Shown: one piece after another, positions 4,446 to 61,266 of the stretch | How positions within the stretch are numbered: the stretch's first letter is position 1 | Layout of the letters: every line of letters starts with the position of its first letter | NCBI RefSeq assembly: GCF_032854445.1 | Contig: NC_088306.1 | Coordinates: 14,379,386-14,443,385 of the forward strand | Origin: Liolophura sinensis | Taxonomy: Eukaryota > Mollusca > Polyplacophora > Chitonida > Chitonidae | DNA: 64,000 nucleotides | Reading direction: 5' to 3' | The notes under the pieces: generated by a model | Databases searched by the model: none | The model's input: only the letters and a program-made list of their open reading frames with translations | Told to the model about the DNA's origin: nothing | Translations under genes and position numbers: made by a program

Positions 4446-6793
4446 ATGAAGGCTCCGTTGTTTATTGGCATTTTTGTGTGCCTTGTCAGTCTCACTTCAT
4501 CCACATGTATGGCCGGTATGTTACTGCATTTGTAAATTACTTTTACATTTACTTTAAATTATAAACCGTAAGTGGAAAGGCCTGTCAGCAGCTTTCAAAT
4601 GGTCACGCGTTCCTCCAGGCTATGCCCGGTTTCCCCCCACCATAATGCTGGCGGCCGTCGTATAAGTGAAATATTCTTGAGTACAGCCTAAAACACCAGT
4701 CAAATAATAAAGAAAAATCAAATAAATTTAAATGCCCGTATTTAATTTAGGGGCAAAGCATCGATTATATATCAACAGTACAGTTTATTTGGTAGAGGTC
4801 GGTCAGCATACAGATGATATCATATGTTAACTAAACAGTGCACACCTCCTCCACAACTAGAGGTAAAAATTCCCACACTACAAACAAAGGAACGATATCA
4901 TAGATTTCCATTATATATGTGAAGTCCATACAATGATTTAAATATTCCGCGATTAGGATCCTCGCCACAATTAGACGAAACGGAAATGAAATTCAATTCA
5001 GTTTTACCAATATCCCTGCAACTCGTTTCTCGTAAAGTTTGAAAAGATGGGCGGACTCACGGGCAGGCGGACAGACGGTGACAAAAGCATAACCGACTTT
5101 AGGAAGGCATATTGTGATGGCGACATTATATTGGCTACTCTCGGTTTGATATCACATGTCTAGTTAATTATGCACACAACATGAAGACATCCCCAGCCTT
5201 TCTTGTGTTTTTGTCCGTTCTGAGCTTTAAAATTTTCCAGAAGAACGTTGGATGTCAATTAAAACCACCACCACAAGGGTTTGTCTCGGAAATTTTTCGT
5301 CGTCTCTAAATGACGAGGAATCTTTTGTCCACGACCAGTCACCAGATATGACAAACACAACTGGTGGTCAGTATTGAATCTTTCAGGAAACTATTTGTTT
5401 ATCCGTCTGTTTCCTAGCTACTATACGGAAACAGTTATGCAGGGATTTGTGTGCCGTTTGTGTGGCGGAAACTTACGCTCTTGGCATGTAGACTAATTTT
5501 CGATTACTGACTGCTGTTTGGGGTGGGTTTTGAGGCATTTCTGAGCATTCATCTGATTTGTTTTGAGCTTTGCACAGTATAGAGAAATATGTGGGCATAG
5601 TCCCAAATCATGCCAACAAAAGTTTATTCAGTTTGTGATCCTCGATAACCTGCTCTTGCAATCGTGCAAACATTATGAACGATATGTTCGCGCTGCAATT
5701 CATAGTATCAGCTTTCATCTCTTAATCTCTCACCAGGTCCAGAGTCCTCGTGCATGGAGGGGTGGAACGTCGTTTGTAGCCGACCATTGGCCGACTTTAC
5801 CGTCAAGAAAGCCAAAAGATTCTGTAAGAAAATGCGGAACGGGCAGGTAGTCAAAGGACAGTGTGTAATAGGTAAATTCAGGTCATAAGTGGTTAAAAAT
5901 GAATTTACATAAGATTCATTTGCGGAGTTCAAAGACATTTGAACCCAATTTACCCTAACATACGGACCCCATAATTCTGATTATGTTTTCTAATTTTTTC
6001 CATGGTCAGAGAGAATATGAGACAATATTGTTCAATTCAATAATCTATATATTAAAAATATATAAACAGAAAAACTGGTGTAGCGTACCTTCATTTGTTT
6101 TTGATTAGTTTTGTTGCATTCGGCTACATAATTTGTTGTCACAGCAGTTCCAGCAGCCACAAGCCATAATGTGGTCGTAAGCTCGAATCCAGCTCTCGCT
6201 GGTTCAGCTGTTTTCGGATCAAGAAGTTTGTGAGGTACCTGGCGAATTATGGTGATTGACTCCAGGCAATTCGATATGCTCTGATGATAATCATACTATT
6301 GTCATATAAGAGGAAAGAATCTGTATTACGCTGTAAAGCCTCGATGATATAGGTAAATTTCTTAGCATCTTTTCAAACCTATCCGAGGGATATTTGTACC
6401 CGTTACGGACTAACCTGCCATACATTACAATAACCTAAGCGGATGGGGAGATTTATATAGTACATTAACATATACACGGACCAATTTCGATAAATGTTAC
6501 CATTAAATTGCGCGTTACCAAACACATTTAGTGTCGTAATTCAAATCTTCTTAACTATATTTGAGATTTCTTGTCAGGGCGTAATTCACAGTTTCCTCTA
6601 TCACATATGTTTTCCTTTATGTCTTCTGCTACACCTATACCTCCAGTCCTGATTAATGTTATACTTCAACTTGTTTTATCTCCGACTTATTTCCTTTGCT
6701 AAAACTCTACATATTTTGAACGTTTTCCTGTTAACTTTTTCAGCGGGTGGATTGGGTGTAAACACGAACGCATGTTGTACGCTTGGGAAGTAA
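4446..6793 (+). CDS. secreted six-cysteine peptide, paralogue A
   Basis: Three coding exons: 4446-4515, 5737-5871 and 6744-6793, giving 84 residues. The donors are GTATGT and GTAAAT, and both acceptors are pyrimidine-rich before CAG. Both introns are phase 1. Residues 1-23 form a hydrophobic signal peptide ending near a TCMA sequence. The mature part has six cysteines spaced C-x7-C-x15-C-x12-C-x12-CC and ends TLGK. It opens with the family motif CMEGW and carries a basic stretch (KKAKRF, KKMR); by count the mature peptide has about ten Lys/Arg against three acidic residues, the most basic of the five. A likely extracellular cationic peptide such as a host-defence effector is inferred from this, not shown. 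The start ATG follows an AG acceptor by ten bases, as in the paralogues. Intron 1 contains a SINE-1 fragment. Confidence 0.85.
4576..4733 (+). mobile_element. SINE-1, 5'-truncated, in intron 1 of gene A
   Basis: Starts inside the conserved centre (AAAGGCCTGTCAGCAGC) and runs through GTATAAGTGAAATATTCTTG to an AT-rich tail. The tRNA head is absent. Confidence 0.85.
4740..5730 (+). other. rest of intron 1 of gene A
   Basis: No element or gene is recognised here; the polypyrimidine tract CTTTCATCTCTTAATCTCTCACCAG at its end is the exon 2 acceptor. Confidence 0.5.
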
Positions 6794-6938
6794 ACAAAAG
6801 AGCAGCATAACGAAGAGAGGACGGAAAGATTTGAACTCAAGACTATTTTGATGCGAATACAAAAACATCAGTGATGATGATTTGAGCGTTCCTTTCACGT
6901 ACGGTGTCGTTTTCCCATATTATATTACATGAGGGTTA

Positions 6939-6944
6939 AATAAA
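6939..6944 (+). terminator. candidate polyadenylation signal of gene A
   Basis: AATAAA 146 bases after the stop codon, in GGGTTAAATAAATAC. Confidence 0.5.
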
Positions 6945-7339
6945 TACATCAGGAGATGACGAAGGACTCTGCGTTGTTATTATCAGAATATGGATATAAC
7001 TGCAGCCCTCTGAGGAGATTATTTGTTTGGCTGAGAAAGTTCGGACAGTTTTATCCAATGATACAGCACTCAGGTCTTATCAATGGGAGAAGTAAGAAGT
7101 AGTAAGCAAGTCGACAATGATTTGGCAAATCTTCTGACTTAAAGCCACTGCCGATACAGTAACAGGTGTAGAATCGGGTGTTTCGAGAGCATAGCTTTTG
7201 TCCAGTGACGGCTCCCATCTTTTGGAAAGTATTTGATGGAATCGATGGGATTTTGCCGGCGTTACGCACGTGTAACCGTTCATGAGAGTTTGGTACGAAC
7301 ATCCGTGTTTCTTTCATCCTGTCGACTACATTCTACTGT

Positions 7340-7640
7340 CTGCAAAATCAGTCATATTCGCTACAAATTTTGCCTTAAATCAGTGACACATAACAATATA
7401 TGTTGGAAGTCGATATTCCTGCACAGAAAATGTAGTTTAAGCACTTTTCTAATTCATAATGCTAAAGTATTGAAGCTGCATTTCCCTTGCAATTGTATAG
7501 ACTTACAACGTAACAATGTGTAGTGCTTGTGGTGTTACGTGTCTCTAACGAAAGACAATTTTTGTTGCGAGTATGACCGATTTTACAAACATCTGAATAT
7601 AGGCGACTGACTAAAAGAAAAAGACTATAGTGTGTACATC
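7340..7640 (+). repeat. Rep-3, diverged partial copy
   Basis: The end blocks TTCCCTTGCAATTGTATAGAC, GAGTATGACCGATTTTAC and AATATAGGCGACTGACTAAAAG follow the Rep-3 order seen at 3950-4050 and 8800-8945. Confidence 0.6.
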
Positions 7641-9265: not shown

Positions 9266-9349
9266 ATGCTTCTCTATTACGTTCTGCCAACTTTATTTAA
9301 TATTTACATTTATGTAATTATCCCTTGTATATTCCTTACATAATTGATG

Positions 9350-9615
9350 TTTATTTATTTATTGATCGGGGCTTTACGCCGTACTCAAGAATATTTCACT
9401 TATACGACGGCGGCCAGCATTATGGTGGGAGGAAACCGGGCAGAGTCCGGGGGAAACACACGACCATCCGCAGGTTGCTGGAAGACCTTCCCACTTACGG
9501 CCGGAGAGGAAGCCAACATGAGCTGGACTTGAACTCACAGCAACCGCATTGGTGAGAGACTCCTGGGTCATTACGCTGTGCTAACGTGCTAAACAGCTGA
9601 GCCACGGAGGTCCCC
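9350..9615 (-). mobile_element. SINE-1, near full length
   Basis: All parts are present from the TTTAT-rich tail to the tRNA head, whose complement GAGCCACGGAGG ends the copy. Confidence 0.9.
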
Positions 9616-10139
9616 TCATAACTGATGTTTAGTGTTTCTCGAAAATGCCACTTCATAGTTTCCGAGTTTATGAATGATGGGCTTGCCTGTTCCCGCGGTT
9701 CTCAGGGAACAAGAAATAGTTTCAATTCAGGCTCATAAAATGTCTTTTCTTGCAGAGCCATACGTAAAAGAGGCATGCGAATGGCTTGTACCTATCTCGC
9801 CTTGTATATTTATTTGTACAACGGTGATTATTTCGTCGTTTGAGCTCCTTCTGCGTATGAAGTGCGGGTTTCTCAACCGTAAAATTATAAAAAATAAATC
9901 ATTCTAGCACACGTCATATGTGATATGTATCATAACTGGTTAAGTGTATAAATGAAATGTTGAAGAAGTGGCTTGTACACAGATTGATTCATTTATAGCA
10001 ATATAAAGATAGTTATGTCTTTCCACTATATCCTTGGTGTTTGCACCGCACTTTTACCGTGAAATAACATGTGCCCGTGTTGCACATTTACTGGGCGAGA
10101 TAAGAAAGTTATTTACTTATTACATGCTTCCCTAGAAAC
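9616..10139. other. intergenic, no gene seen
   Basis: An open frame of 77 codons at 9674-9907 has no initiator context, splice structure or recognisable content and is treated as chance. Confidence 0.4.
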
Positions 10140-12643: not shown

Positions 12644-13687
12644 TCACCTGTACCAATACACTTCCTCGTCATCTTCTATAACACGTGTTCGTAGATATTT
12701 CCAAAATAAACGAAAAAATGACGGTAGAATTGGAGCTGGATTAACTCGTAGAAGATGTGGATAGCTTTTTTTGAATGCTAGAGTAGCTTCCTCCAAATGA
12801 TAGTGGGGCAATTTGGGAAAGAGATGATGGAGATGGTGCGTGCCCACGTTGTGAATTATTCCGTGAAACCAGCCATAGTGCCGGTCCACTGTTGATAACT
12901 GTCCTTGCACGTAATTCCATTTTTCGTGAGATACCCAGGGGATATCATCGTCTGCGTGCTGAAGGAATGTGATGACTAAACCCCACAGGAGGTGTGCTAT
13001 GAGCGGAAGGACGAAGTGGAGTAGTAAAGAATCCCAACCGTAGTGCACCGCGTACTGATACAAAATGGCGGCCCAGAGAGCATCCAACATTAATGATACA
13101 ACGCTTTCAATCCGGCGTCCTCCATCTACATAGGTATGGATAAGATCGTCATATGAACGAACAGATCTTGGCCCGGAGTCCACGGCCAAGTATGCAGTCC
13201 AAAGTAGACTGTTTTCTGGTTGCCAAAGAATTTCCCTTTTTCTAAGCGGGAAAAACAATTCGTCTTTGTCTATGTTGCAAGTGTTTTTGTGGTGGACCCG
13301 ATGTGAGTACTTCCAACAGCTGTAAGGCATTAGGAGAGCAGTGTGTAACACACCGCCAACTACGTCGTTGAGAAGCTTGTGCCTGGAGAAAGATCCGTGG
13401 GAACAGTCGTGCCCTATGATGAACAGAGCGACGAAGAACGTACCCTTGAGAAACGCATAAACGGGAGCGACAGCATACACAATGTACCATGGCAGGGAAA
13501 CGCGCATCCACTCGAAAGTCAGGTGAAGAGAGGCAACAGCGGCCAAATCCCGAAAAACGTAATACATGGACGTCGACACTTCTGGCTCGAAGCAATGTTT
13601 CGGGATGACTTTTTTTATGTCAACCATAGTGGGGAAAGTCGCTTGTGTCTTTCCATTCACTTTCTCCTGCACCTTTGACGCATCCAT
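12644..13687 (-). CDS. methyl-end (omega / delta-12-like) fatty acid desaturase
   Basis: An uninterrupted 347-codon frame. The product is a membrane-bound, di-iron fatty acid desaturase with all three histidine boxes: HDCSH (residues 93-97), HRVHH (129-133) and HHLHH (284-288). Hydrophobic segments flank them (about 63-92, 104-121, 196-212 and 221-243), as expected for an endoplasmic-reticulum enzyme. There is no N-terminal cytochrome b5 domain, so it belongs with methyl-end desaturases (FAD2/FAD3, nematode FAT-1/FAT-2 type) and not with front-end desaturases. Such enzymes insert double bases toward the methyl end of C18-C20 acyl chains and allow de novo linoleate or omega-3 synthesis; they are established in several molluscs and other invertebrates. 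Exact regioselectivity cannot be read from sequence. The start ATG lies 12 bases after a CTTACAG acceptor, so a non-coding upstream exon is likely. Confidence 0.92.
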   Translation of the reverse strand: MDASKVQEKVNGKTQATFPTMVDIKKVIPKHCFEPEVSTSMYYVFRDLAAVASLHLTFEWMRVSLPWYIVYAVAPVYAFLKGTFFVALFIIGHDCSHGSFSRHKLLNDVVGGVLHTALLMPYSCWKYSHRVHHKNTCNIDKDELFFPLRKREILWQPENSLLWTAYLAVDSGPRSVRSYDDLIHTYVDGGRRIESVVSLMLDALWAAILYQYAVHYGWDSLLLHFVLPLIAHLLWGLVITFLQHADDDIPWVSHEKWNYVQGQLSTVDRHYGWFHGIIHNVGTHHLHHLFPKLPHYHLEEATLAFKKSYPHLLRVNPAPILPSFFRLFWKYLRTRVIEDDEEVYWYR

Positions 13688-13699
13688 TCCGAAAGATTC

Positions 13700-14339
13700 C
13701 TGTAAGCATACAGCGGTATAATAATATAGAGTTGAAAAAGCACTGCATACTTATAATAAGAAATGATTACATACAGGATAGAAGAGGCTTGCGAATAAAT
13801 TGTAACTGCTGTCCTTTGGCGAATTCTACATGATGGAGTTGCTACTATATTTAAGCACTTTCATAAAGTAAGACTAAAATATCAAAGATCACAAGCAAGG
13901 TGGATAAATCTAGAGTAGCGAAAAAATGTTGTATTCATATTTGCCTTGTAAAAAGAGCAAACAAAATCAAAATAGTTTTCTCAGAATATGTCAAAGTTAG
14001 CCCAGGCTTACAATAATAGGCATATAAATGCATTTGCAACAGAACTGATCACAGCTGAGTAATTGTAGGGCAGATTTTAGACAAGTCAGAACCTCAATGA
14101 CAAGAATCAGGGTGTCCTATTTTGATGACGGCTCCATTCTAACAAAGGATGGTGGTGGTGCGGACGATTACTGGTTGATCAAACTGACTGGGAAATTCTG
14201 GCCATTTAAGTCATTGACTGCATTTAAATTAAAGAGCGTTTCAGTCTGTTTTCCATTTCATTTATAGCAAATGCAAAACACTGGTGTGCCGTACATTTTG
14301 TTCCTTTCAGAATTTACATCTGTACATATCGCCGCTGTT
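13700..14339. other. upstream region of the desaturase, no gene seen
   Basis: Probably leader intron and promoter of the minus-strand desaturase gene. I cannot place the first exon or a TATA box with confidence. Confidence 0.35.
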
Positions 14340-25592: not shown

Positions 25593-28500
25593 ATGCGCTC
25601 CTTGTTCGTTGTCGGTCTTTTGGCCTCGGTCCTTGTCTTTGCAATGACACAGGGTAAGTAAATATCAATTCTGCCTAAGTAACGATTTGAGTAAATTCAG
25701 AGAGTAATATACAAAGATATGCCTGGACCGAGCTGGTTTCTAATCTTGACCTAAGCGGCCTAATTGCACCCATTTCATCAAGTGTCGGTCTATATGTAGA
25801 GCAGTTATTGCACGGAAACCAACGACCTTTCAAGATCAGTGAGATCAAAATACTCAAAACTCATGCATGGATGGAGCTCGTTTTCGAACACGATCTAATG
25901 TTGCTTTGTTCTGGAAGGAAGCTAAACGTTTCGAAATTTCGAAAATGTCTTCGAAAAACTGACCCCGGAACTGTTTATCGACACTCCAGACTTGTGTTGT
26001 GTTCTGCAGGATCTACCGTTCTCATAGACTGCACATTACGCAAGCGCCCACAATTTCGGTCACCTAACAAATGTTCACGTTTAAACTGTTCTTAACAGAT
26101 TTAACTCTTCTCCTGTAGACTTCCGCCATTTGTGTCTCCAGCCAGAGCAAACTCAACAATGTCAGTGCATGTCAGTTAATGTGGCTTAGGCATGTTTGCT
26201 TGATGATTTTAGTGCGATTGTAGGCGCCTTCTAGTGATCACCATCTTTTCAGTAACTTCCACATCCATCTGTCTCGCTTCTTTCGCAGCATTTTACATAA
26301 TCTACGGATAACAACTGGAAATCCTAACCTGCTCACCAGATGATATGTAGAACACGTTACTTTTCTGTACTAAACCATTGCAATCCTTAGCAATGGTGGG
26401 AAGCTCCGTCAGCAACCTGCGGCTGGTCGTGGGTTTCCCCCGAGCTTTGACCGGTTTCCTCCCACTTGGCCACCGTAGGACAAGTGAAATAATCTTCAGT
26501 GGGGCACACAAACACAAATCAAATAAACAAATAAATAAATAGCAACATACCTTGAATTAGTGATTCGAGGGGAATCGAATCTGTCTCTTTCGAAGTGCCC
26601 GCCTACTCGCCGATGGTGGTATTTATCCAATACTGGCAGATTTACGAAGTGGTTGTCAACGTTTCACCAATCGCATGCGCTTGTAGAAAATAGCGGGCGG
26701 GATTTAACGGCGCCCGATGCGGAATCTGTAGGTTGTTTGTATATTGCAATGGTTCCGTGTACAGAAGGCACCCGGATCCCGATCTAGATCCACTGCTGTG
26801 CGGGGTAAGGAAATCATGTCCGAAAAAAGTCCATCACTGATACAGCTTGAGAGACTCTCGTAGGTTAAGTAAGCTAGGGCGATCTTTGCCCTGCCTTATA
26901 ACTGCTGAGCGCTGAGGTAATATACTTGAACCAGCTCTCTATGGCTTCACTGCAGCATTAAATCATGCGGTTTTTGAAGAATCTCAGGAAGAGTAGTGTT
27001 TTAGCCCTTTTTCTCCCGATACATAAACCTGTCTTTTATTACATGTACATGGGAATGTAATTCGTGAGCTCGACACCCAATGAGTAGTGGTGGAGCTAAT
27101 AATTGTATCCATGCAAATAAATCATTGTTTATTCTTTCTTATCTTTTAAGCAGCTAACCATAATTTACTTGTTTCACCAAATTTGTTATTCAGTCTTTCA
27201 ACCGTGTTGTTGTTGTTGTTTTATGCTTAGATTGTCCTGAGGGATGGGAGACTAAATGTTCGAGAGACATGAAGCAATTCACCAAGAAAGATGCCAAAGG
27301 TTTTTGTAAATCTCTACAAGGCAAATATAAGAAAGGCATATGCTATATCTGTAAGTCAGTAAATCGTCTCATATCTTAAAAGTATCTCACAGTGCTGGCT
27401 GGCGTCGTATAAATGAAATATTCTTGAGTACGCTGTAAAACACCAAATACATATAGCGATTCTATAGACATTTATCTACTGAAGACAAAACATTTTCATC
27501 CAGATAGATTCAAAATGTAAACCGATGCATAAATGTTTCCGTTATTATATATTTCCCTGCCGTTTAACGGCCTTCTCAAACATTTTCCACTTCGGATACG
27601 GCAGACAGGTTTTGGGCTATAGAGGAAACCAGTGTGCCTGGCGTAATCACATACGATACAACATAAAAATAGTATATATAACTGTGGGACAGATAGGAGA
27701 AACGCAGTCAACAGTTTTCAATCATGCAGGAAAGACAGTTCATATTATAGGTATCACATCCAATTAAAATTCGTAGCCGGTGAGTAATTTAAATGTCGAA
27801 CATAAATATTGGTATCTCTTTTGCGCGTTCATTATAACTTAAAATAACAAAACCAAGTTTATGAAGAAAACACAAATGCTTACAACCCCCAAGTCTCCGG
27901 TTATAGGCGGAATTGCACACAACTGTGACACAGATGGCCAGAGATCCTGTATGCTGTGTCAATATTTGCCAACAAAAGGGTTGTACTCACTGTAAAATGT
28001 ACTCAATGTAAAATTTACTTTCCTTAAAAATGTTGTTTTGTACTTTTTTTTTGGTGTTCGCCAAAACTCATCAATATTTTTGAATCGTCTGCGCATTCTG
28101 ATTAACGCTGGTTGAAGACCAAAATGCTATGCACGTATATCTGTGTGTCAGATGTCGGAAACACCCAGGGTAAACCTGATTTAAGTAGATGTGTTTATAC
28201 TGCATTGTCTTCGCAATAATATAGACATCCAACATATTCGTGTGTAGAACTTATGTTATGACGAGTGAATGACGAAAGGCAATTTTTGGTTATATGTATG
28301 ACTAATTTTGCCGAGAGCGGAATATAGGTGACAAATTACTACACACTATGGAGTATTTATCGCACTGGAAACCGCTTCTTTTCACCAGAATCTGTATTAA
28401 CTTTTTATGCTTTCTTAGCTTTTTGGAGATATGTCTTGAACGTCTCCCTAAGTGCCGCTCCCTAAATTATATCTCTGCCACTGTCAGACAAGTTTGACCT

Positions 28501-29334
28501 TTCAAGTATGTGCGAGACTTGAAGCCTTGTTTAGGATTAGCCTCACAACTGGAGTCTTCGCGAGGAACTATTTAATCAGCATTCATCAATACAATCGCTT
28601 CATTTATCATGGTCAGAGTCATGCTGGGCATACCTTTGATACGCAGAATGCATGTCAAGGTATTGTCAGAAACACATGTTGAACCACAGTTTTTGTCTCC
28701 TGCCTCATCACCGCAACCTCAGCGTTTTTCAAGATGTCTAGACAAAGTTTGCTAGTGGTGACAGTGATGCAAAGCAAATGTAGAAAGCCACGCATGCGCT
28801 GTGAGGATGTATGGCGTTCATTAAGGTTGTAGATTGAAATATTAATGTTTGATATCCAGATTCAATGCCTTCAGCCATGTGGATTCTCCCTCAGGCGATG
28901 TGTATTTTCATTCAAATCCCAGCTAGATTTCTAACACACCTGTGCAAGCTGTGAACAAAAAAAAAACGAAAAAAAACACGTCCAAAGCCTTAAATAATCA
29001 GTTTCCTATTTACATGGCGTACATATAGAATCGCGATTAAAATTTTGTTCTGTTAGGTCGAGAAAAATAATTTATGGCGTCTTTCTTATGACAATGATGC
29101 ATCGTTTTTCTTGAAATGGATTATTTGAATTCCAACATTTCTGTGCGTTTAATTCTTTATGAGATGTAAACAAATTAATGAAAGTATTTCACGCAGTTTT
29201 CAGCTGTCTGTTTGATGAATTTCGTTTCATTTTTATAGTTTCCCTTTACTATAATGTTAAAAATTTGGGCGTTTTTTGTTTCAGCCAGTGAGATAGGAGT
29301 TGCGGCTAATGCTTGTTGTTACGTCGGGAAATAA
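25593..29334 (+). CDS. secreted six-cysteine peptide, paralogue B
   Basis: Three coding exons: 25593-25653, 27231-27350 and 29285-29334, giving 76 residues. Both introns are phase 1, with donors GTAAGT and GTAAGT. Residues 1-20 are a hydrophobic signal sequence (RSLFVVGLL core). The mature part opens DCPEGW and has cysteines spaced C-x7-C-x15-C-x11-C-x12-CC, ending YVGK. It is lysine-rich (about eleven Lys/Arg against six acidic residues), with the basic runs TKK and KYKKG. Exon 2 is 12-15 nt shorter than in the paralogues, the loss falling between cysteines 2 and 4. Exon 3 keeps the invariant 50 nt. It is the most diverged member together with A. Both introns hold SINE-1 and Rep fragments. 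Function is unknown; an extracellular defence or venom-like peptide fits the architecture. Confidence 0.84.
25654..26390 (+). other. intron 1 of gene B, first part
   Basis: No element recognised. The 95-codon frame at 25808-26095 lies in this intron and lacks support. Confidence 0.4.
26393..26541 (+). mobile_element. SINE-1, 5'-truncated, in intron 1 of gene B
   Basis: Centre (GTCAGCAACCTGCGGCTGGTCG) and a diverged tail followed by AAATA repeats. Confidence 0.8.
26542..27225 (+). other. intron 1 of gene B, last part
   Basis: Ends in a long pyrimidine-rich TTG repeat (GTTGTTGTTGTTGTTTTATGCTTAG) that serves as the exon 2 acceptor tract. No gene is seen. Confidence 0.45.
27395..27450 (+). mobile_element. 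SINE-1 tail fragment in intron 2 of gene B
   Basis: GCGTCGTATAAATGAAATATTCTTG followed by GTAAAACACC, starting 45 bases after the exon 2 donor. Confidence 0.8.
28195..28345 (+). repeat. Rep-3 end fragment
   Basis: TTCGCAATAATATAGACATCC, TATGACTAATTTTGCCGAGAG and GGAATATAGGTGAC match the last third of Rep-3. Confidence 0.55.
28470..28595 (+). repeat. dispersed repeat Rep-5 copy
   Basis: CACTGTCAGACAAGTTTGACC, TTGTTTAGGATTAGCCTCAC and AATCAGCATTCATCAATAC recur in the same order at 38035-38160 and 42995-43110. Confidence 0.7.
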
Positions 29335-32830: not shown

Positions 32831-33796
32831 TTGTTGATTCATGAGTTTGTGGATCGCCTTGTGGATAAGTTAGGGGATCGTTTTGAGCAGAGTTCTAATA
32901 GACTTGATCAGGAAGTTAAACGGGAGATTGTACGCCTCCCCTCTCCCCAATCTACCCCACTGACTACTGCCAGTGCCTGTTTTGGCGCCCCCCCCCCCTA
33001 CCCCCTTCCACTGAAACAGTCCGTGGTGTCCACGATCGGACTAGCGTGTTCACTAGGGGGGTGTTTACTAAGGGAGTGTAGGTTTAAGAGATAGCGGCTG
33101 TTCCCAAGATGGGGCTGAGGTTAAATAGAGTAAGACACATGAGCCTAGGTTACTACCCCAGTCCTAGTAGTCGGAGCTCTGAGGGGAGACCTCGACTGGG
33201 CTGCTCTGGCAGTGGTAGGGAAACATTTAATTACTCGCCAATTAGGGTGCCGGAGACCGAGCCAAAGTATAGGAGTCGCTCCATGGTGAGTACGTTTAGA
33301 CGTCAGGCATCCCCGGGGTCCAGATCGTCTGGTATGGGAAGTGACTCGTCCCAGTTATCTAACTCGGAGGGTTGTCGCAAGCGACGTAGACCTCAGGCCG
33401 TTAAGATAGCATATTTTAGTGGTGAGGCTACCTTTAGTTTTCCGTTCGAAGCTGCGGCTAAGAGATACAAGTGGTCCTATTGAGATAGGTTAAGGCGCTT
33501 CAAAGAAAGTTTACGAGGTAGGGCCGTAGAGTTTTATCAGACCAGGTCTCGTGGTGTGGCATGATGTTGGTAGGTTGTTCAAAGATTTCAAACGACGATA
33601 CGGTAAACGTGATCCCTGCGAGGTAGTTTGGAGGCGGTTCTTTACGGAGGGGCGGGGTAGGGTAGAGGGCCTAGAACGCTGTTTGCTTTGGGGGCCAGCT
33701 AACCAGATTGAATCGAGTTCTGCGGTTGCAAATATGACAGTGCGGGAAGCGGAGCGGTCGGTAGGTGTAGATTGGTCTATGTTAACACAAGCTTAA
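32831..33796 (+). pseudogene. gag-like remnant of the Ty3/gypsy element
   Basis: Pieces 32831-33094, 33109-33483 and 33551-33796 lie in differing frames. The middle and last pieces resemble a capsid-type gag segment (AAKRYKWSY, then LRRFKESLRGRAVEFYQTR, then LFKDFKRRYGKRDP), where stop codons and shifts separate the parts. A basic RRR/KRRRP stretch is present. Recognition rests on general gag appearance and on position before the protease. Confidence 0.55.
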
Positions 33797-34501
33797 TTAG
33801 GAGGGTCCCAAGCAGGGGTTGTCATACATACGGCCTCTGGAATGACTATCCTTGATAGGGATTTGTACAAGCAGGTAGCCGCCCGCTACCCGATAACAGG
33901 TAGTATCAACCTCAGTGGAGCTTTCCCTACAGGTAGCTGTCTGGGTGAGGTAGTAAGGGACTTTGATATTGAGACAGGGGGTGATCCATATGTATTGGAC
34001 GTTGTGGTCGCCCATATTAGAGATCCTATGTTGCTGGGATTTGATTTCCTCACGGCTCATGATTGTGTTCTTGATTTGCATTGGAATATATTGTTGTTTG
34101 AGATAAAATTGTGCATGTTGTACAAGTTAAACTCTGCTGGAGATACGTTAGAAGTCCGTCGGGTAATGGTGCAGCATAGTACCGTTATTCCCCCATTGAG
34201 TAAGGTGACCTTGACCGGCTGTATGACAGGAGACGGTCAGGGGGAGTATGTGGTCGAACCATTGGCGCCAATAGAAGGGTTGTTGTTTCCCCGTGTTGCC
34301 ACGAATCGGCGTACTTTGGTCCCGTTGGAAGTGGTTAATGGTGGGGAGCGGGACGTTACCCTTGGACCAGGGACAGCTGTGGCGTGTGCCGTGGAGGTAG
34401 ACACCTTGGTCTCTGAAAGTGATAGGGAGCCCGAGAGTGATGGCGACGGAGATGTATTGCCGCCATATTTGGTAGACTTGTATGACAGGGGTAAGGAGTA
34501 A
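33797..34501 (+). pseudogene. retropepsin-like protease remnant
   Basis: The open part is 33842-34501. It has LGFDFLTAHDCVLDL, a typical second half of a gypsy-type retropepsin fold. Near 33826 the place where the family has its catalytic Asp-Thr-Gly reads HTA, so both the aspartate and the glycine are changed. The frame ends at TAA (34499-34501), directly before the RT-side sequence. Confidence 0.65.
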
Positions 34502-35660
34502 CTGGCCAGTGCTCTTCGCCAATTGTTAATTGACTTTCAGGATGTGTTTTTTCAGTATGGTTTTGATTTGGATTGTTTTAGTGGTTTAAAGCACGCTACA
34601 GAGACAGGGGAGGCCCGTCAGTTTAGGCAACGCATGCGTAGAACACCGTCAGGGTTTGAACTAGAGGAACAGCGGCATCTTGCGGCTGTGTGAAGCTGGT
34701 GTCATTCGGCTTATTTGAGGGTATTTTGATTATCGGCGGTTAAATTCGGTGACTGTCAAGGATGCCTTTCCGTTGTCGCAGGTTGATGATTGTCTACTCT
34801 TGGTGGGCCTGAGTATTTTTCTACGTTGGATTTGGCCGCAGGATATTGGCAGACTGTGATCACGCCAGAGGATTGGTGTCAGACAGCATTTATCATTAAG
34901 TTCGGTTTGTATGATTTAGAATGTATTTCGGCCTCCGCAATACGCCAGTGACCTTTCAGCGGGTTATGAATCAGGTGTTGAGAGGGTTGACTTGGAAGGA
35001 GATTTTGGCCTATTTAGATGATGTTATGGTACTAGGTAAGACCTTTGAGGAAGCATTGGCTAACCTCCGAGTTGTGCTTCAAAGAAGTTAGGGACAATGA
35101 CCTGAAGTTGAAACCCAGAAAGTGTGAACTGTTTAAAAAGGAAGTAAATGTTTGGGCAGAAATGTGAGCTCAAAAGGGTTAAGTGTAGCTGACGGCAACC
35201 TCGAGGTTATGGCCAAGTGGTCTGTACCGCAGTATAGGAGGGCTGTAGAATCGTTCCTGGAGTTTATGAATTATCATAAAGGAATTCTTTTCAGGCTTAG
35301 GTCAGTAGGCTAAGCCGTTGTATGCATCGACTGGGCCTAAGGCTATGATTATGTGGGGATTAGAAGAGCAGGAAGGTTTTGAGACCCGTCAGGATTTTTG
35401 TTGTCCACACCAGTCTTGGCCTTTCCCACTGCCGACGATATGTTTATTCTGGATACCGATGCCTCTGCCACGGGAAATGGGGCGGAGCTGACACAGGTTT
35501 AGGATGGTAAGGAACCCAGCTCAATGTAAGTATTGTACCACCCGTAGAGAGCTGTAAGGGGTAGTCCGGTTTACTAGGGAGTATAGGCACTATTTGTTGA
35601 GTCGACCGTTTTTGATCTGGATGGATCATAACAGTCTGGTGTGGTTGACCAGATGTGTAA
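34502..35660 (+). pseudogene. reverse transcriptase and RNase H remnant
   Basis: Directly after the stop come LRQLLIDFQDVF and FRQRMRRTP, the usual linker and RT entry. Then MYFGLRNTPVTFQRVMNQ lies at about 34921 and the catalytic YLDDVMV at 35011-35031. RNase H follows as FILDTDASATGNGAEL at about 35446-35490 and LIWMDHNSLVWLTR at about 35615. Stops and frameshifts break it between these motifs. Confidence 0.85.
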
Positions 35661-36315
35661 AGGTTAATGAGACCTGGGGTCGGTTTGACCTAGATATAGA
35701 TGACGTCATCCCGATAACGGTTAAAGACCGATCGTGTCAAATGGCTAGTAGAATAGTGGCTGGGGGTGTGACCCCCGAGCCCAGTAGTCTGGAATTGGCT
35801 AACGCAGCCGGGGATCCGGAGGGCAACGGTCTCACTAATGAGAATACGGCGGTTGGCCAGGGAGATAGTGTACTAGAGGACCCGCCACATAGTCTTTTAG
35901 ATTGTACCCTAGGCATAGAGACTTCGGGAGAAATTTCATCCCATGTAAAAGGTAACCCCATGGAAGGTGAAGAGGGGTTTCAGTTAGTACCAGAGGAACT
36001 GGGGTACGTTAGTGCCGCCCAATTGGCGGATCCAGATCTAGTGCCTGTTTTGCGATCGGTGAGTGATGGAGTAGAGCCTGAACGGGTGCATTTGAGTAAT
36101 AAGGTAACTAATCATCTATGGCAATGTAGGTCGCCGTAATTAGTGAAAGATGGTGTCCTGATGTAAGAGTGGGACTATGGGTCGTATAGAGGAGGGAAAT
36201 TGGTGGTGCCAGCTGAGTTACGGAACGAGGTACTACGGTTAGTGCATGATGTAAAATTTTCTGGCCACTTACGACAGCAAAAGAACATAGCTAGGTTACG
36301 TTCCACCTTCTTTTA
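35661..36315 (+). pseudogene. linker and truncated integrase remnant
   Basis: The frame 35594-36139 starts in RNase H, and after MDHNSLVWLTR a deletion joins it to an acidic linker. After the stop, a second frame reads KLVVPAELRNEVLRLVHD and FSGHLRQQKNIARLR, the HHCC zinc-binding start of a gypsy integrase (histidines near 36244 and 36267). It ends at a TAG near 36315, and no catalytic core follows. Confidence 0.75.
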
Positions 36316-42225: not shown

Positions 42226-42558
42226 CTAGGGTATGTGTGGTTCGTACTGTGAATAGGGTATGTGTGGTTCGTACTGTGAATAGGGTTTGTGTGGTTCGTA
42301 CTGTGAATAGGGTGTGTGTGGCTCGTACTGTGAATAGGGTATGTGTGGTTCGTACTGTGAATAGGGTTTGTGTGGTTCGTACTGAGAATAGGGTATGCGT
42401 GGTTCGTACTGAGAATAGGGTATGTGTGGTTCGTACTGTGAATAGGGTATGTGTGGTTCGTACTGTGAATAGGGTATGTGTGGCTCGTATTGTGAATAGG
42501 GCATGTGTGGTTCGTACTGAGAATAGGGTATGTGTGGTTCGTACTGTGAATCGGACAT
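42226..42558 (-). CDS. possible repeat protein, nine-residue repeats
   Basis: A 110-codon frame with an ATG at 42558. It consists almost wholly of twelve copies of the nonapeptide YSQYEPHIP and stops at TAG directly after the last unit. In this frame six of the differences between units (TCA/TCT, GAA/GAG, CAG/CAA) are silent. The replacements fall mainly at one position (Ile, Lys, Thr, Met). In the other two minus frames the same six changes would all alter residues. That favours this frame being translated. Against it: all three minus frames and one plus frame are open simply because the 27-base unit lacks stops, there is no signal peptide, and no flanking exon was found. A structural or matrix-type low-complexity protein is conceivable; a non-coding minisatellite is equally possible. 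Confidence 0.35.
   Translation of the reverse strand: MSDSQYEPHIPYSQYEPHMPYSQYEPHIPYSQYEPHIPYSQYEPHIPYSQYEPRIPYSQYEPHKPYSQYEPHIPYSQYEPHTPYSQYEPHKPYSQYEPHIPYSQYEPHIP
42229..42551. repeat. minisatellite, 27-bp unit, 12 copies
   Basis: Unit GGGTATGTGTGG followed by TTCGTACTGTGAATA, twelve head-to-tail copies without any length change. Substitutions affect only a few positions. Confidence 0.97.
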
Positions 42559-44067: not shown

Positions 44068-45837
44068 ATGCATTCACCTACTCTGCTTGTGTTGCTTGCT
44101 TGTCTTTTGGGAGTCGCGGTTTGTCAGACGGGTAAGTTTTGTAACACGTGACCAATCACATACGGCTGTAGCAAAACTGCAGTATATCACAGAATCTGTG
44201 AAGTATCCACTCCACAAAATTTTCAGGCAGCACAAAAAGTCGTTCAAACAAATACATATATATATTGGATTCCTAGATACTGTATAACATTTTAACGAAC
44301 AGTAGTTTCATTATTCTGGAGCAATAGACGTGACTTCTGTGTGTTACGCTTCACCTGTAGTCACATTGTGGCATTCAGTTGTCTGGTAGATTTCCTGCCT
44401 GGAACAATTTTAATATGCACCATCAGAGCTTTGTTGTCGCCTTGAAAATAAAAGATCAAGTAAATTTAAGGTAAATCTGTAGACAGGTGGTTAAGGGTTG
44501 GATGGGTATTCTTGGTTTATAATAATAATCTTAAATGTCCAATATTATCAACCTTTACCAAAATGTGCAAAGAAAAGTTTGCAAAATCAGAGCGGTAATC
44601 TACGCGAAAAATGTTCAAAAGTCTTGCCAGGAAACAAAGGTCATCTTTTTGGGCTGTGTAAGCGTTAAGGATTTGTAGGAATAAATATTTTGAGTTATTC
44701 AGGTAGAGTAGCTTGAACAAAACACTGAATCTGGACAAGCGGATATATATTACGCGCCTGGCAAGACTCACAAAAGTGTCCTCAGTAGAGATAGGGGTAA
44801 ACGTTACAGACACAATATATATAATATGGGTGTATACTAACAATCAAGAAAATCATAACAACGGCTTAAACCTATAAAACGTGTGCTATTGCAGATGTCT
44901 GGCAATGAAAACTGGTTGCATCCTGAACTCATTGCCAGACATCTACAAAAGACCTAATTCAACAGGCTGCCCTAGATATTACTCACTGACTGTTAGTATA
45001 CAAACATATACTGTGTCTCTAACTCTCTGTCTGCATTTTCTGTTGAAGACACTTTGGTGAATGTCGCAACGTAAGAAATCGTTAAGGATTTGGTTCATGA
45101 CCTATTTATTAGGAAACAAAAGAAACCAGATCTACTGACTGGCTCAGTAACAATACATAACAGTACAACAGACATAGACGATGAAATTAAATCGGACAAA
45201 TTGTTAAAAATGTAGACTGTCGATGAGTTTACAAAAAATATAATAATGATGACAAAAATAATAGCTGGTCTGTATTGGTGTGAGTCTTGTTTGTTCCTCT
45301 CCAGAGTCTCCCGCTGAGGTATGTCCAGAAGGCTGGAACATTACCTGCACTCGACCTCTGTCAGAATTTACCGAGGTGAAAAGGCCCAGGAAATTCTGTA
45401 AATCCATCGGTTACATCGCGAACGGCCTCTGTCACACAGGTATCCGTTTACTGTTGTTTTCCTGGCGTAGATCGCAAAAAGTGTTGCTTCCTTTCAGTTA
45501 TGGAAACAATGTAGCTTTGCAGGAAATTAATGAAAGTCCTAGTATCTCAAGGGTACAGGTGATAATCTTCGCATATATAACGTCATTTTAAACAATTCAT
45601 TTCGTGAAGATCCAGTAGAAACCACACATTTTTACATTCCTTCCTTCAAAACTAGTTTTTATTCATTAATTACATTCATGTATTTATTGTTGAGCCATTA
45701 TAAATGCGTACTTCATGTAATTACATATAATACTTTAACATTTGACAAATTTTATTTGATAGTTTTGTTTTCTGTTTGTTGTTTCAGTGTCCGGGGATCT
45801 TGTCACCCCTAACGGTTGTTGTGAATATGGGAAGTAG
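44068..45837 (+). CDS. secreted six-cysteine peptide, paralogue C
   Basis: Three coding exons: 44068-44131, 45305-45439 and 45788-45837, giving 82 residues. Both introns are phase 1 (donors GTAAGT and GTATCC; acceptors CTCTCCAG and GTTTCAG). Residues 1-19 are a leucine-rich signal peptide with the family ending AVCQT. The mature part has CPEGW and cysteines C-x7-C-x16-C-x10-C-x12-CC, ending CCEYGK. Acidic and basic residues roughly balance, unlike A and B. The stretch RKFCKSIGYIANGLCHT is identical to paralogue E. A 12-base leader piece separates the acceptor from the ATG, as in D and E. An extracellular disulfide-rich peptide is certain as a type; its activity is not known. A terminal Gly-Lys could allow C-terminal amidation after removal of Lys. 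Confidence 0.9.
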
Positions 45838-48575: not shown

Positions 48576-48862
48576 TTATTGACCAGGGGGCCTCCGTGGC
48601 TCAGTTGGTTAAAGCGCTAGCGCAGCGCAATGGCCCAGAAGCCTCTCACCAATGCAATCGCTGTGAGTTCAAGTCCAGCTCATGCTGGCTTCCTCTCCGG
48701 CCGTACGTGGGAAGGTCTGTCAGGAACCTGCGGCTTGTCGTGGGTTTTCCCCGGACACTGCCCGGTTTCCTCCTACCATAATGCTGACCGAGGTCGTATA
48801 AGTGAAATATTCTTGAGTACGGCGTAAAACATAAAAAAAAACAATAAATATTATTGACCAGG
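48574..48862 (+). mobile_element. SINE-1, full length, with target-site duplication
   Basis: SINE body 48588-48848. A box GTGGCTCAGTTGG, B box GTTCAAGTCC (48667-48676), centre, and tail GTACGGCGTAAAACA ending in an A-rich run. It is flanked by perfect 14-base copies of TATTATTGACCAGG (48574-48587 and 48849-48862), the duplicated target inside a Rep-1 copy. This copy best defines the ends of SINE-1 in the window and proves retroposition. Confidence 0.96.
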
Positions 48863-51673: not shown

Positions 51674-53683
51674 TTACTTCCCGTACTCACAGCATCCGTT
51701 GGGAGTGACAAGCTGGCCTGACGCTGGAACAAGACAAAAGGAGATCAAGTTTATAGTCATAAAACATCTAAAGACCGTGAATGAGTAATGTATTTAATTC
51801 ATTGGTGTTTAACGTTATACTGAAGAGTTTTCTCTTGTAAATGATGGCGATTAGTATTATAGGTGAAAGAGACAGGAAAGACCGGACAAAACCACCGACC
51901 AATGAGTAGTTACTTATGAACATTCCCACATGTGGCTTACAGATATACACATAATATTGGTGAAAGATTTATTTGTTTGGTGTTTTACGCCATACTCAAG
52001 AATATTTCACTTATACAATGGTGACCAGCATTATGGCGGGAGGAAACCGTGTAAAGCCCGGACCAAACCCACGATCATCCGCAGGGTGCTGGTAAGCCTT
52101 CCCACGAACAGCCGGAGAGGAAGCATGAATTGGGCTTGAACTCAGAGCAACCGCCTTGGTGAGAGTCTGCTGGGTCATTCCGCTGCGCTGGCGTGGTAAT
52201 TCCGTAGGCCACAGACGCCCCAATTATTGGTGAAAGAGATGTGGTCAAACGAAAGCCGGACTTTGCTAAAATGGCTGCACGAGCGTCTATGTCCGCCTAC
52301 TATCACCAAGGCCTAACTAACAAAGACGAGGGGAATCGACAAATTCCCTGTAATCTCACTTGTGTCTATCATCTTCACAGTTATGCATGCGATATGTGTG
52401 GTTGGTTTGAACATTAAACGAACAGCGCCTTAAGGAAGTTAACCTAGGTTTAGGCAGGAAATGGCATCCACAGAATATGTATGTCAGAGGGTACGTTTAC
52501 ACTACGTACAAATCTAGGCGTCGTAACACACATTCGTGTATCAGCTGTCAACCAGACATTCGCGGTTAATCATTTTCAAAATAACATTACCGCCAAAGAA
52601 CCGAAAAAAATTGTAAACAAGTATGGAGTCACTTTTAATAATTTAAAACTGCCAAAAGTTTTACAAGATGCCTGAAAGACGCAAGAAGTGTTTTAGTCTC
52701 ATACATCAGACAACTATAAAAGCAGAGTGCCTATGATTCTGGATACTCTGTTCATATTTACTTACAAATGAGATAGTTGTGCTTTTTGCGTGTCTAAAGA
52801 AATTTTGACTGAAATTTTTTATTTATTTGATTGGTATTTTACGCCGTAAGAATATTAAGAATATTTCACTTATACGACGGCGACCAGCATTATGGTGGAA
52901 GGAAACCCACGACCATCCGCAGGTTGCTGTAAGACCTTCCCACTTACGGCCGGAGAGGAAGCCATCATGAGCTGGACTTGAGCTCACAGCGATTGCATTG
53001 GTGAGAGGCTTCTGGGTCATTACTCTGCGCTAGCGCGCTAACCAACTGAGCCACGGAGGCCCCGGAGGTGCAAAGGAACACGGATGTGCCAGTATACTGT
53101 GTGTCATTAGGACGCCGTACACTGTACGTTATGCCCGTAACACCGATGTGACACTTAACATTTCATACCTGTCTGACACAAATACTACATCCTTGTTTGA
53201 AACAAAAACTAAATACCTGTGTGGCAGAGGTCGTTACCGATATAACCGATGGATTTACAGAACTTTCTTGGACGTTTCACTTCGGTGAATTCCGCCAGGG
53301 GCCGTGTACAGGTGACACTCCAACCCTCAGGGCACGTGCTGGAAGACTCTAAATAAGTAAACGTTACAGCCGTTTATCGTATTACAAAAGGACTAGAAAT
53401 CAGTTTTAGTAGTTTAACTGATGAGACAAAATAGAAGTTCAAGAGAAGACGATGTACCATATAAACAAATGAGGAAAAGACGGCATTTTCAGATGTTTAT
53501 TTTATAATTGAAATGAAATTTTATCTAAACATCCATAAGATACATTATTTAGCCTTGTTTTATTTAAGTAAAAAATAATTTAGGCTGTTGACTAAGAGCT
53601 CACGTATAAAGGTGCTTACCAGTTTGACAAAAGATCACGCCCAGCAGGCCGGCACACAAAACAGCGATTGGCAGGAAATTCAT
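51674..53683 (-). CDS. secreted six-cysteine peptide, paralogue D
   Basis: Three coding exons on the minus strand: 53683-53620, 53348-53217 and 51723-51674, giving 81 residues. Both introns are phase 1 (donors GTAAGC and GTATTT; acceptors TTTAG and TTCCAG). Exon lengths 64, 132 and 50 equal those of paralogue E. Residues 1-19 are the signal peptide (FLPIAVLCAGLLGVIFCQT). The mature part has CPEGW, cysteines C-x7-C-x16-C-x10-C-x12-CC, and ends CCEYGK; the last exon encodes the same peptide as that of E. Charge is near neutral. The two introns hold SINE-1 copies absent from E. It is divergently oriented to E with a mirrored promoter region, so the pair arose by inverted duplication. The frame is intact and looks functional. 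Confidence 0.9.
51795..51910 (-). mobile_element. SINE fragment of another family, in intron 2 of gene D
   Basis: TTGGTGTTTAACGTTATACTG begins a tail complement, followed by AAAACCACCGACC. Similar order is seen at 61590-61720. Confidence 0.5.
51967..52222 (-). mobile_element. SINE-1, near full length, in intron 2 of gene D
   Basis: Tail, centre, B-box region and head complement are present, with a short deletion at the CAGCATGAGC site. Confidence 0.88.
52223..52815 (-). other. intron 2 of gene D, unassigned part
   Basis: No element or gene is recognised. Confidence 0.4.
52816..53063 (-). mobile_element. SINE-1, near full length, in intron 2 of gene D
   Basis: Well conserved head complement GAGCCACGGAGGCCCC, centre and tail. 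AAGAATATT is duplicated in the tail, and the CGGGCAGAGCCC segment is missing. Intron 2 thus carries two SINE-1 copies in the same orientation. Confidence 0.9.
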
Positions 53684-57605: not shown

Positions 57606-57609
57606 ACGG

Positions 57610-58085
57610 CTACACAGATTTCTTACCCGTACGGCGACTGGTCCTAATGGAGAAAAGGAAATTGCACCATGGCGTAAACATTTAACTCCGGAAGTAATTG
57701 TCATTAATTATCTCCCTTTGATTCGCCAGACCTTTGGCAGTCCTGAAGTGGTATCAAGATAGCTAATAGCTCGTGTATGATTATAACCGATGTTTATCAA
57801 GAAATATTAGCATTCTTATTGAGAAATCATAATTAGACATGCAAATGGCTGTAATTCTGTCCAGCAAATACCGCGCTTAAAATATTGTGCAAATTTGTTA
57901 TTGCAGGACAATGGTTTCAAAGTAATCTCACTTATAACATTTAATTAAAATTCCAGTTTACTGTGGAATATGAATGGACGAACCATGAAACCTTTCCGGT
58001 CAGTTTGCTTAAATACTGGACCAGTACTGACCACAGGCATTGCTAAACCATAGACCACTGTGCAAACTGACAACTTCAAACAACA
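57610..58085 (+). repeat. right arm of the D/E inverted duplication
   Basis: Counterpart of 54689-55190. Carries the octamer ATGCAAAT at 57839-57846 and TATCTCCCTTTGATTC at about 57710. Confidence 0.75.
58009..58085 (+). promoter_or_regulatory. promoter and non-coding first exon of gene E
   Basis: TTAAATA (58009-58015), then ACTGACCACAGGCATTGCT, and the donor CA|GTAAGTAT at 58085. Nearly identical to the gene D promoter. The partner acceptor is GTTTCAG ending at 60077, twelve bases before the ATG. Confidence 0.7.
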
Positions 58086-59270: not shown

Positions 59271-59274
59271 CTTA

Positions 59275-59465
59275 AAAAGCTGTACAGAATAGAAAATCAG
59301 AGCAGCGACGACAGTGTGATAGCTGTGATAGCTGGCAAATGGTCACATGTAAGTGGTGAAACCCCAGTTAACTGTTCATTTCATTGCTTAATAGTGGCAA
59401 GTGACACGCCCCTAACACCATGTCTTACAAAGAATTATGTAAAAGAAATATGCAACGATGTTAAG
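59275..59465 (+). repeat. Rep-2 copy in the leader intron of gene E
   Basis: CAGAGCAGCGACGACAGTGTG, TAGCTGGCAAATGGTCACATG, then GGCAAGTGACACGCCCCTA. GTGATAGCT is doubled. Confidence 0.65.
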
Positions 59466-59617
59466 TGCAACTGATGTTAATTGAAGTATATATTAGTCTA
59501 GAATTCGGTCAATACCGACGTAAGTCCGTTAATCAAAGAGCAAGTATGAGACCAAGCTTAAGTTGTGCCAGAAGCTAACTGATAAATAAGATAGAGGTAT
59601 TTCATTGCGTATTGTTA

Positions 59618-59940
59618 GGGTGAGTGAGTGCTTCGGTATTAACGTCGTACTCAACAATTTTTCAGTCATATGACGACGAAGGAATCCTTAGGGTGCATGT
59701 ACATGTAATGTGCCTCCTTGTTGCAGGAAGTATGTCCACCGCTCTTTTTATTTAGTTCAGATGCTTCACTGAGACGTCTTACCGAAGGCAAGTAAGCCGC
59801 CCCGGGGATACGAGTCAACTAGCCCCGTACGGGCCAAGCGAGGAAGTTACAACTTCTTTTAAAGTCTTAGGTGTGACTCGATCAAGGATTGATCCTGGAT
59901 TTACCGGTCCCGAACTGTGCTATCCGGGCCGGTATATAGT
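59618..59940 (-). mobile_element. SINE-2 copy in the leader intron of gene E
   Basis: Matches 1911-2212 (GTCATATGACGACGAAGGAATCC, CTCCTTGTTGCAGGA, GGATTGATCCTGGAT) with an insertion of about 40 bases near 59800. Confidence 0.7.
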
Positions 59941-60089
59941 TAAGGTAGTTCGGAGAATATTGTCATCCTGCTGAAAGCGGTGATACTCGACTAACATCGC
60001 AATCGCTGTCCAAAACTGTTTCTAAGCGGGTACCCTGTCACTGTTAATGTTTCAACTGTGTATTACCTATGTTTCAGACATCTACCACA

Positions 60090-61266
60090 ATGAATTCCCT
60101 GACAATCGCTGTGTTGTTTGCCTGCCTGCTGGGCGTGGTCGTTTGCCAGACCGGTAAGCACCTGTGGAGATCGATGGTTTTAAATACGTTAGCTCAAGAT
60201 CGATATACCAATCTTCAGTCAACAGCCTTAATTTATGTTAACCTAGGTGCAAATTTATGTTAACCTAGGTGCAAATTATGTTAACCTAGGTGCAATTTTA
60301 TAAAATAGGAAAATTAGCTTACGATTTTATATCAACTATATAGGTAGCATTTGAAAACACCATATTTGCCCTGATCTGACAGTATGATAGTAGATTGTCT
60401 TCTTCTCTTTGATCTTTTTAACAAGTATAAATTATTTACCACTTCCATCTATAACTTCTATGCCATTCTTATCTAATGTGATAAACGATTATTTTAGACA
60501 CTCAAAGCTCTTGCCCCGAGGGGTGGAGCGTCACCTGTACTCGATCCCTGACGGAATTCACGGAAGTGAAAAGTCCGAGAAAATTCTGTAAATCCATCGG
60601 TTACATCGCTAACGGCCTCTGTCACACAGGTATGTACTGTAGTGTCTGTCTCGCACAACGATGCAATGTTTGTATCACACAGTGTTGCAAAAGGATGCAG
60701 TCTAAGTGACAAACCTGTACGCAGTGTTACGTAAAGTTACCTAGAAGTAGAAATATACTCACGGGTTTCAACCATGTCGGCAAGATGTAGTGGCCGATGC
60801 ATCAAATCCATCCAGCGTCGGGTTTGAACCTGCACCCTGTGTGTTCCAGCGATTAAAGACAAGCGCCTATAACAAAGGCCAACTCCCAACCTCAAGAATA
60901 TGTGATAGACGTATACGCACCTAGAGTTAATCTCATGGCAATCCTTGGTTAGGTAAAATTTTACTTGCATAAGGTTGTATATGTTTTGTATTTAGAATGT
61001 CACTGATAATATAAGTTCGCCAGGAACTCGCCAGATGTCGGTGGTTTTCTCCAGCACTACTCCGCCCATTAAATCGACTATAATGGTGGGAGTTAAATAT
61101 ACTCTTGTAAGTTGTTAAAAAAACAGGCAAATAAATAAGTAAATCCATGACATTTGAATCGTTCAATACTTTATAACTGAAACTTTTCTAATAAAGTTCT
61201 TTTTTTTTTCTTTCAGCTTCAGGCCAGCTTGTTACTCCAAATGGATGCTGCGAGTATGGAAAATAG
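60090..61266 (+). CDS. secreted six-cysteine peptide, paralogue E
   Basis: Three coding exons: 60090-60153, 60498-60629 and 61217-61266, giving 81 residues. Both introns are phase 1 (donors GTAAGC and GTATGT; acceptors ATTTTAG and CTTTCAG). Residues 1-19 are the signal peptide (LTIAVLFACLLGVVVCQT). The mature part has CPEGW, cysteines C-x7-C-x16-C-x10-C-x12-CC and the ending CCEYGK. Net charge is about +1. It has the same exon lengths as paralogue D and differs from it at only a few mature positions; RKFCKSIGYIANGLCHT is identical to C. The ATG is 12 bases after the leader acceptor. No polyadenylation signal is obvious before a SINE-1 tail at 61399. Function is unknown; it should be a stable disulfide-linked extracellular peptide. 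Confidence 0.9.
60233..60298. repeat. three short tandem repeats in intron 1 of gene E
   Basis: ATGTTAACCTAGGTGCAA occurs three times with a period of 21-22 bases. Confidence 0.95.
60760..60880 (-). mobile_element. SINE head relic in intron 2 of gene E
   Basis: GGGTTTGAACCTGC is the complement of a tRNA B box (GGTTCAAACC); the surrounding CAAGCGCCTATAACAAAGGCC resembles a tRNA-head complement. Confidence 0.45.
61020..61135 (+). mobile_element. SINE 3' fragment, non-SINE-1 family
   Basis: GATGTCGGTGGTTTTCTCCAGC, CACTACTCCGCCCATTAAATCG and an AAATA-type tail. Confidence 0.55.

Follow-up and report, generated by a model that had tools for sequence, protein, structure and literature searches.

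What kind of molecule is encoded by five small genes that lie together in the genome of the chiton Liolophura sinensis, and do their products belong to any peptide family already described? The genes, A to E, occupy a 64-kb window (the whole 64,000-nt stretch that was analysed: NCBI RefSeq assembly GCF_032854445.1, contig NC_088306.1, positions 14,379,386 to 14,443,385 of the forward strand), where a first-pass annotation had proposed a cluster of genes for six-cysteine secreted peptides of a family it could not recognise. Our analysis supports the view that they form a family without a counterpart among the known peptide families of the libraries searched, one that has so far been named only from a chiton. 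The five are paralogs, and their products, to judge from sequence pattern, would be amidated, disulfide-rich, extracellular peptides. What these peptides do is an educated guess, for which host defence is our tentative first choice—one we hold with less than even confidence—and signalling comes close behind.

All five genes could be rebuilt complete from the DNA of the window at the coordinates proposed for them, A, B, C and E on the + strand and D on the − strand. They share one plan, much as had been claimed: a leader exon of 61–70 nt; a middle exon of 120–135 nt; and a third exon whose coding part, stop codon included, is 50 nt in every gene. The ten introns between the coding exons are, without exception, GT-AG and phase 1, and no model contains an internal stop. 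Exon 2 carries the first four cysteines (C1–C4), and exon 3 carries the adjacent pair C5C6 together with the terminal Gly-Lys. Each of the five precursors has a hydrophobic leader, a CxEGW motif and a final GK. The spacings between successive cysteines are 7, 15, 12, 12, 0 in A; 7, 15, 11, 12, 0 in B; and 7, 16, 10, 12, 0 in C, D and E. The 7 and the fourth-place 12 are constant, as first observed, and the two spacings between them vary (15–16 and 10–12).

The likeness among the exons was tested against chance by scanning the window in six frames with profile models of each exon. With all five genes in the training set, each exon gave exactly five loci that stood out, and no clear sixth (worst of the five 8e-8; best background 0.035). 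Such a scan is circular, and it was therefore repeated with the tested gene or genes left out of the training. Held-out exon 2 was found with E-values of 2.4e-15 for A and 3.0e-12 for B, and, when the model was trained on A and B only, of 1.4e-12 to 3.9e-12 for C, D and E, against 0.68 for the best background fragment. For exon 2 this test is decisive: the paralogy goes beyond chance. Because exon 3 is so short, its held-out scores were weaker (E 0.0043 to 0.18), yet it ranked directly after the training loci in every run.

A protein profile search, in which 365 candidates were drawn from 5.8 billion proteins, returned two relatives, P0001 and P0002; relatives had to share three 5-residue words, so distant ones will have been missed. 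P0001 is the 'uncharacterized protein LOC135479726' of Liolophura sinensis (Mollusca, Polyplacophora). It contains the 84-residue product of gene A exactly, the three exons joined as predicted, and so lends exon 1 of this gene the support of an annotated protein, itself a gene model. It also has 35 extra N-terminal residues, which map by tblastn mainly to 1397–1426 and 2640–2705 of the window. P0002 is identical to gene B at 44 of 62 positions across exon 2 and the intron edges, and one inserted residue changes its C2–C3 spacing to 16, from 15 in gene B. The products of genes B to E were not themselves found as proteins in the database under the same three-word requirement. For this species RNA-seq exists from digestive gland, foot, gill, gonad and heart, published under the name L. 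japonica (PMC11068029), which PMC12441733 corrects to L. sinensis. The features of the five genes, with the evidence for each, are as follows:

1397-1426 and 2640-2705, + strand: 5′ exon pieces that the public model gives gene A (tblastn of the P0001 N-terminus)
4446..4515, + strand: gene A exon 1, hydrophobic leader (putative signal peptide), ends in phase 1 (rebuilt model; annotated P0001 has it spliced to exons 2 and 3 without a mismatch)
5737..5871, + strand: gene A exon 2, C1–C4 of the mature peptide (exon models, held-out models, P0001)
6744..6793, + strand: gene A exon 3, C5C6 and terminal GK (exon models, P0001)
25593..25653, + strand: gene B exon 1, hydrophobic leader, ends in phase 1 (rebuilt model; held-out sequence model E 1.1, i.e. 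not recognised)
27231..27350, + strand: gene B exon 2, C1–C4 (exon models, held-out models, relative P0002)
29285..29334, + strand: gene B exon 3, C5C6 and GK (exon models, held-out models)
44068..44131, + strand: gene C exon 1, leader (exon models)
45305..45439, + strand: gene C exon 2, C1–C4 (exon models, held-out models)
45788..45837, + strand: gene C exon 3, C5C6 and GK (exon models)
53620..53683, − strand: gene D exon 1, leader (exon models)
53217..53348, − strand: gene D exon 2, C1–C4 (exon models, held-out models)
51674..51723, − strand: gene D exon 3, C5C6 and GK (exon models)
60090..60153, + strand: gene E exon 1, leader (exon models)
60498..60629, + strand: gene E exon 2, C1–C4 (exon models, held-out models)
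61217..61266, + strand: gene E exon 3, C5C6 and GK (exon models)

A splice-acceptor-like site lies 9–12 nt 5′ of the ATG in all five genes, which suggests that each probably has at least one additional 5′ exon. Because the site precedes the equivalent ATG in every gene, we infer that gene A truly starts at the ATG at 4446; if it does, the upstream pieces in the public model are probably 5′ untranslated sequence. The end of exon 2 (GYIANGLCHTG; 45409–45439) resembles exon 3 (VTPNGCCEYGK; 45788–45837), and the equivalents in D and E do likewise; the aligner often overlaid the two. Perhaps this is the vestige of an old internal duplication, or perhaps it is chance.

What would the products look like? 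From the presumed end of the leader, the mature peptides are 54–61 residues long, with 1–8 residues ahead of C1. No dibasic propeptide site occurs before the first cysteine in any of them, and this, together with the leader, suggests that one peptide per gene is secreted directly. A Gly-Lys ending is a classic substrate for trimming and amidation, and the sequence pattern of an amidated secretory peptide—a leader, and at the C-terminus Gly followed by a basic residue—is present in all five. We read the terminal Gly-Lys, for the first time in this analysis, as a putative amidation signal. Processing might proceed in this way: signal peptidase removes the leader, releasing one small peptide of about 54–61 residues from each precursor; the six cysteines pair to form three disulfides; and, once a carboxypeptidase has trimmed the final Lys, the Gly left at the end is turned into a C-terminal amide. 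The outcome would be a compact extracellular peptide. As amides, and with leader cleavage as assumed, the peptides have net charges of ~+7 (A), ~+5 (B), 0 (C), +1 (D) and +1 (E): A and B are cationic, and C to E are near neutral. On the same assumption mature C, D and E begin with Gln, which could cyclise. The monoisotopic masses calculated on it, for peptides with three disulfides and an amide, are 6281.06 (A), 6007.81 (B), 6726.13 (C), 6577.01 (D) and 6510.95 (E); with an N-terminal pyroGlu they would be 6709.11 for C, 6559.99 for D and 6493.93 for E.

The mature parts of C, D and E are under strong purifying selection, a finding that is also new here. Pairs of them differ by 18–28 synonymous versus 5–9 nonsynonymous changes, a ratio of nonsynonymous to synonymous divergence (pN/pS) of 0.08–0.10 (Fisher p <=1.1e-9). 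For the leader and short linker of these genes (26 codons) the ratio is 0.43–0.71, and for the D–E pair it is indistinguishable from neutral (p 0.37). Synonymous sites are near saturation between C and the other two, so that the ratios are approximate; all three pairs nevertheless show this difference between mature part and leader. In the A–B, A–E and B–E pairs, which share 24–28 of 54–55 mature residues, pN/pS is 0.39–0.45 for the mature part and 0.60–0.72 for the leader, at saturated synonymous sites; strong constraint is therefore established for C to E only.

Do such peptides belong to a known family? No Pfam model reached its gathering cut-off with any of the five precursors, or with the mature parts of A to E and P0002; among the mature parts even the highest-ranking row, Glyco_hydro_4 with C (E 0.0051, 16.8 of 23.2 bits), was below the cut-off. 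The Pfam library includes models for the beta-defensin, big defensin, macin and conotoxin families. NCBIfam gave three weak rows only, and a profile of the mature region, compared with the PDB, had a best match of E 1.4. No six-cysteine family of this description turned up in the literature searched, nor in the part examined of a mollusc-wide neuropeptide survey (PMC6425005). That the family is an unrecognised one has thus withstood the profile searches by which it was to be checked. The larger claim, that the cluster represents a new system, goes further than the data: the family is new, but short, disulfide-rich secreted peptides are a familiar kind, and gene A has already been annotated, albeit as 'uncharacterized'.

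As to function, we lean towards host defence in the haemolymph or at body surfaces, where A and B would be the cationic members of the set, and C to E the conserved, near-neutral ones. Defence is favoured because relatives are seen so narrowly, because the genes are locally duplicated, because A and B are cationic, because the cysteine order and gene layout are defensin-like, and because the turgencins provide a precedent (PMC7024374). Two relatives, the named source of which is a chiton, are what might be expected of an effector family duplicated locally and restricted to one lineage, within a search that is insensitive to distant relatives. Several observations pull the other way. Defence peptides are in many cases positively charged and quick to evolve; the mature parts of C to E, at 0 to +1, are near neutral, and their pN/pS of 0.08–0.10 signifies strong purifying selection. 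No fold was obtained, two AlphaFold 2 (AF2) models of one protein having confidence (pLDDT) values of 51 and 54. The public model of gene A begins upstream of the leader, so that the hydrophobic stretch would be internal to the protein, and the joining of exons in genes B to E is based on DNA alone. Held-out leaders, moreover, are unrecognisable across the deep branches: that of A was not among the 8 matches listed, and that of B scored E 1.1, while an exon-1 model of A and B only gave E 0.31 for C, with D and E not among the matches listed. Exon 1 of gene B is therefore assigned by where it lies, its splice frame and its hydrophobicity; for exon 1 of C to E, resemblance to one another is added to these features.

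Could the peptides be signals instead—hormones, cytokine-like factors or waterborne pheromones? Were they so, a receptor would hold the mature sequence of an amidated, disulfide-stabilised ligand while the leader drifted, and the strict constraint on mature C, D and E beside their looser leaders agrees with this, as do the near-neutral charge, the N-terminal Gln that could cyclise and the invariant GK ending. Six-cysteine hormones are usually widespread, however; these genes are clustered locally, and a chiton is the only organism named for any relative. A and B, furthermore, are strongly cationic and diverged, and the mollusc-wide survey, in the part examined, is without such a family (PMC6425005). 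We consider signalling possible, if somewhat less likely than defence. Toxins or deterrents of salivary, mucus or egg-coat secretions we consider very unlikely. Multigene clusters that encode short, disulfide-rich peptides of the amidation type are a usual feature of mollusc venom families, but venom peptides such as conotoxins combine a conserved leader with a hypervariable mature part; C, D and E do the reverse, and no Pfam family came above its cut-off. Scarcely credible, to our minds, is that we have been misled by splicing together unrelated open reading frames, or by decayed gene copies. Gene A alone was found in the protein database, the held-out leaders go unrecognised and exon 3 scores weakly when held out, all as an artefact might have it. 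But the held-out exon-2 E-values are 3.9e-12 or better, all ten introns keep the same frame and boundaries with no internal stop, synonymous differences far outnumber nonsynonymous ones among mature C, D and E, and a relative of B, P0002, occurs in another record.

Two further readings concern descent. The peptides might be extremely diverged trans-defensins, of the big defensin or beta-defensin lineage, that have acquired a longer C2–C3 segment and an extra intron. The order of cysteines is the same, and a phase-1 intron likewise precedes the cysteine module. But the spacing, 7, 15–16, 10–12, 12, 0, is far from the 5, 3, 11, 5, 0 of sea bass beta-defensin 2 (PMC8231796), a yardstick of one member that bears out the first-pass opinion that the spacing differs from beta-defensins; there is no prodomain or hydrophobic N-terminal domain in A to E; a phase-1 intron splits the module; no Pfam match came above cut-off; and a big defensin transcript has been reported from Chiton olivaceus (PMC7203481). 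This origin seems to us quite unlikely. Unlikely, too, is a separately evolved chiton scaffold, defensin-like and amidated, that unites the cis-type order of strand-helix-strand-strand with the trans-type order C-C-C-C-CC. Both low-confidence AF2 models show that order of strands and helix in the mature part, and plant defensins or brazzein are among the structural matches to these weak models, all of them non-significant. The rigid mature part and drifting leader of C to E fit a receptor or fixed target, on such a scaffold, rather than an arms race.

The window contains other features. Between genes A and B, on the − strand, an uninterrupted frame of 368 residues (12644–13750) matches fatty acid desaturases (PF00487, E 8.7e-23), with an N-terminal DUF3474 match below cut-off; it may be an omega-type desaturase, intronless in this part. 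Possible retroelement fragments lie at 33088–36139 (+ strand), where the frame at 35558–36139 has a weak match to reverse-transcriptase RNase H (PF17917, E 2.1e-4, below cut-off) and two neighbouring frames have no Pfam match. At 42227–42551 are 12 copies of a 27-bp tandem unit, and because this unit is open in several frames the repetition itself probably accounts for the long reading frames there. Another repeat, dispersed and as much as ~250 bp long, possibly akin to short interspersed elements, is present in many copies on both strands (e.g. 968–1235, 9347–9616, 48585–48850, 51958–53065), some of them inside introns of the peptide genes, such as intron 2 of gene D and intron 1 of gene A.

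Chitons are a little-studied class of molluscs. One paper of 2020 reports a single transcript for a big defensin in a chiton (PMC7203481), and another, of 2019, notes that the class lacked systematic surveys of its peptides (PMC6425005). With its five genes and partly fixed spacing, the family supplies peptides that lend themselves directly to tests by expression, mass spectrometry and folding. A new scaffold would be an addition to the natural disulfide frameworks; a defensin-derived one would show how far a defensin lineage can drift.

How, then, do A to E compare with what is known? P0001 is the same as the product of gene A over all three exons, and differs in the 35 upstream residues of the public model. 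The turgencins, antimicrobial peptides of ascidians, have six cysteines and an amidated C-terminus (PMC7024374), a likeness of description rather than of sequence or spacing. The CS-alpha-beta (cis) defensins, such as those of plants, have the strand-helix-strand-strand order of both weak models, but their framework of C-x3-C and C-x1-C pairs (PMC5234102) is absent from A to E, and the spacings rule it out. The opening of A to E recalls the CPxGW...C...FC of snaclecs, at the N-terminus of the C-type-lectin-like domain; the best snaclec row had E 0.013 when the leader was included, and the one row for the mature part had E 2.2. C-type-lectin-like domains exceed 100 residues and have conserved C-terminal cysteines; at 54–61 residues, A to E are too short to qualify.

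Big defensins have the cysteine order C-C-C-C-CC. As in A to E, their six cysteines are preceded by a phase-1 intron—reported just before the cysteine module in beta-defensins, too—and C-terminal amidation is mentioned (PMC7203481); the chiton transcript of this family comes from another species, Chiton olivaceus. But big defensins have a prodomain with a dibasic site and a hydrophobic N-terminal domain (PMC7203481), whereas A to E have neither, and their cysteine module is contained in one exon (PMC3182236, PMC7203481), whereas in all five of our genes C4 and C5 are separated by a second intron of phase 1. It is domain and exon layout that set A to E apart from big defensins. With beta-defensins, and trans-defensins generally, the order C-C-C-C-CC (from sea bass residue numbers, PMC8231796) is shared by all five, but the short C2–C3 and C4–C5 loops, of 3 and 5 in sea bass beta-defensin 2, are not, being 15–16 and 12 in A to E. 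Beta-defensins pair their cysteines 1-5, 2-4 and 3-6 and fold as a sheet of three strands. The layout of the sea bass beta-defensin genes—leader, middle and short last exon, of 55, 121 and 25 bp or 58, 112 and 22 bp (PMC8231796)—is strikingly like that of A to E. By our arithmetic intron 1 of the sea bass genes is phase 1, and CC falls in the last exon, as in A to E; their second intron would be phase 2, whereas in A to E it is phase 1.

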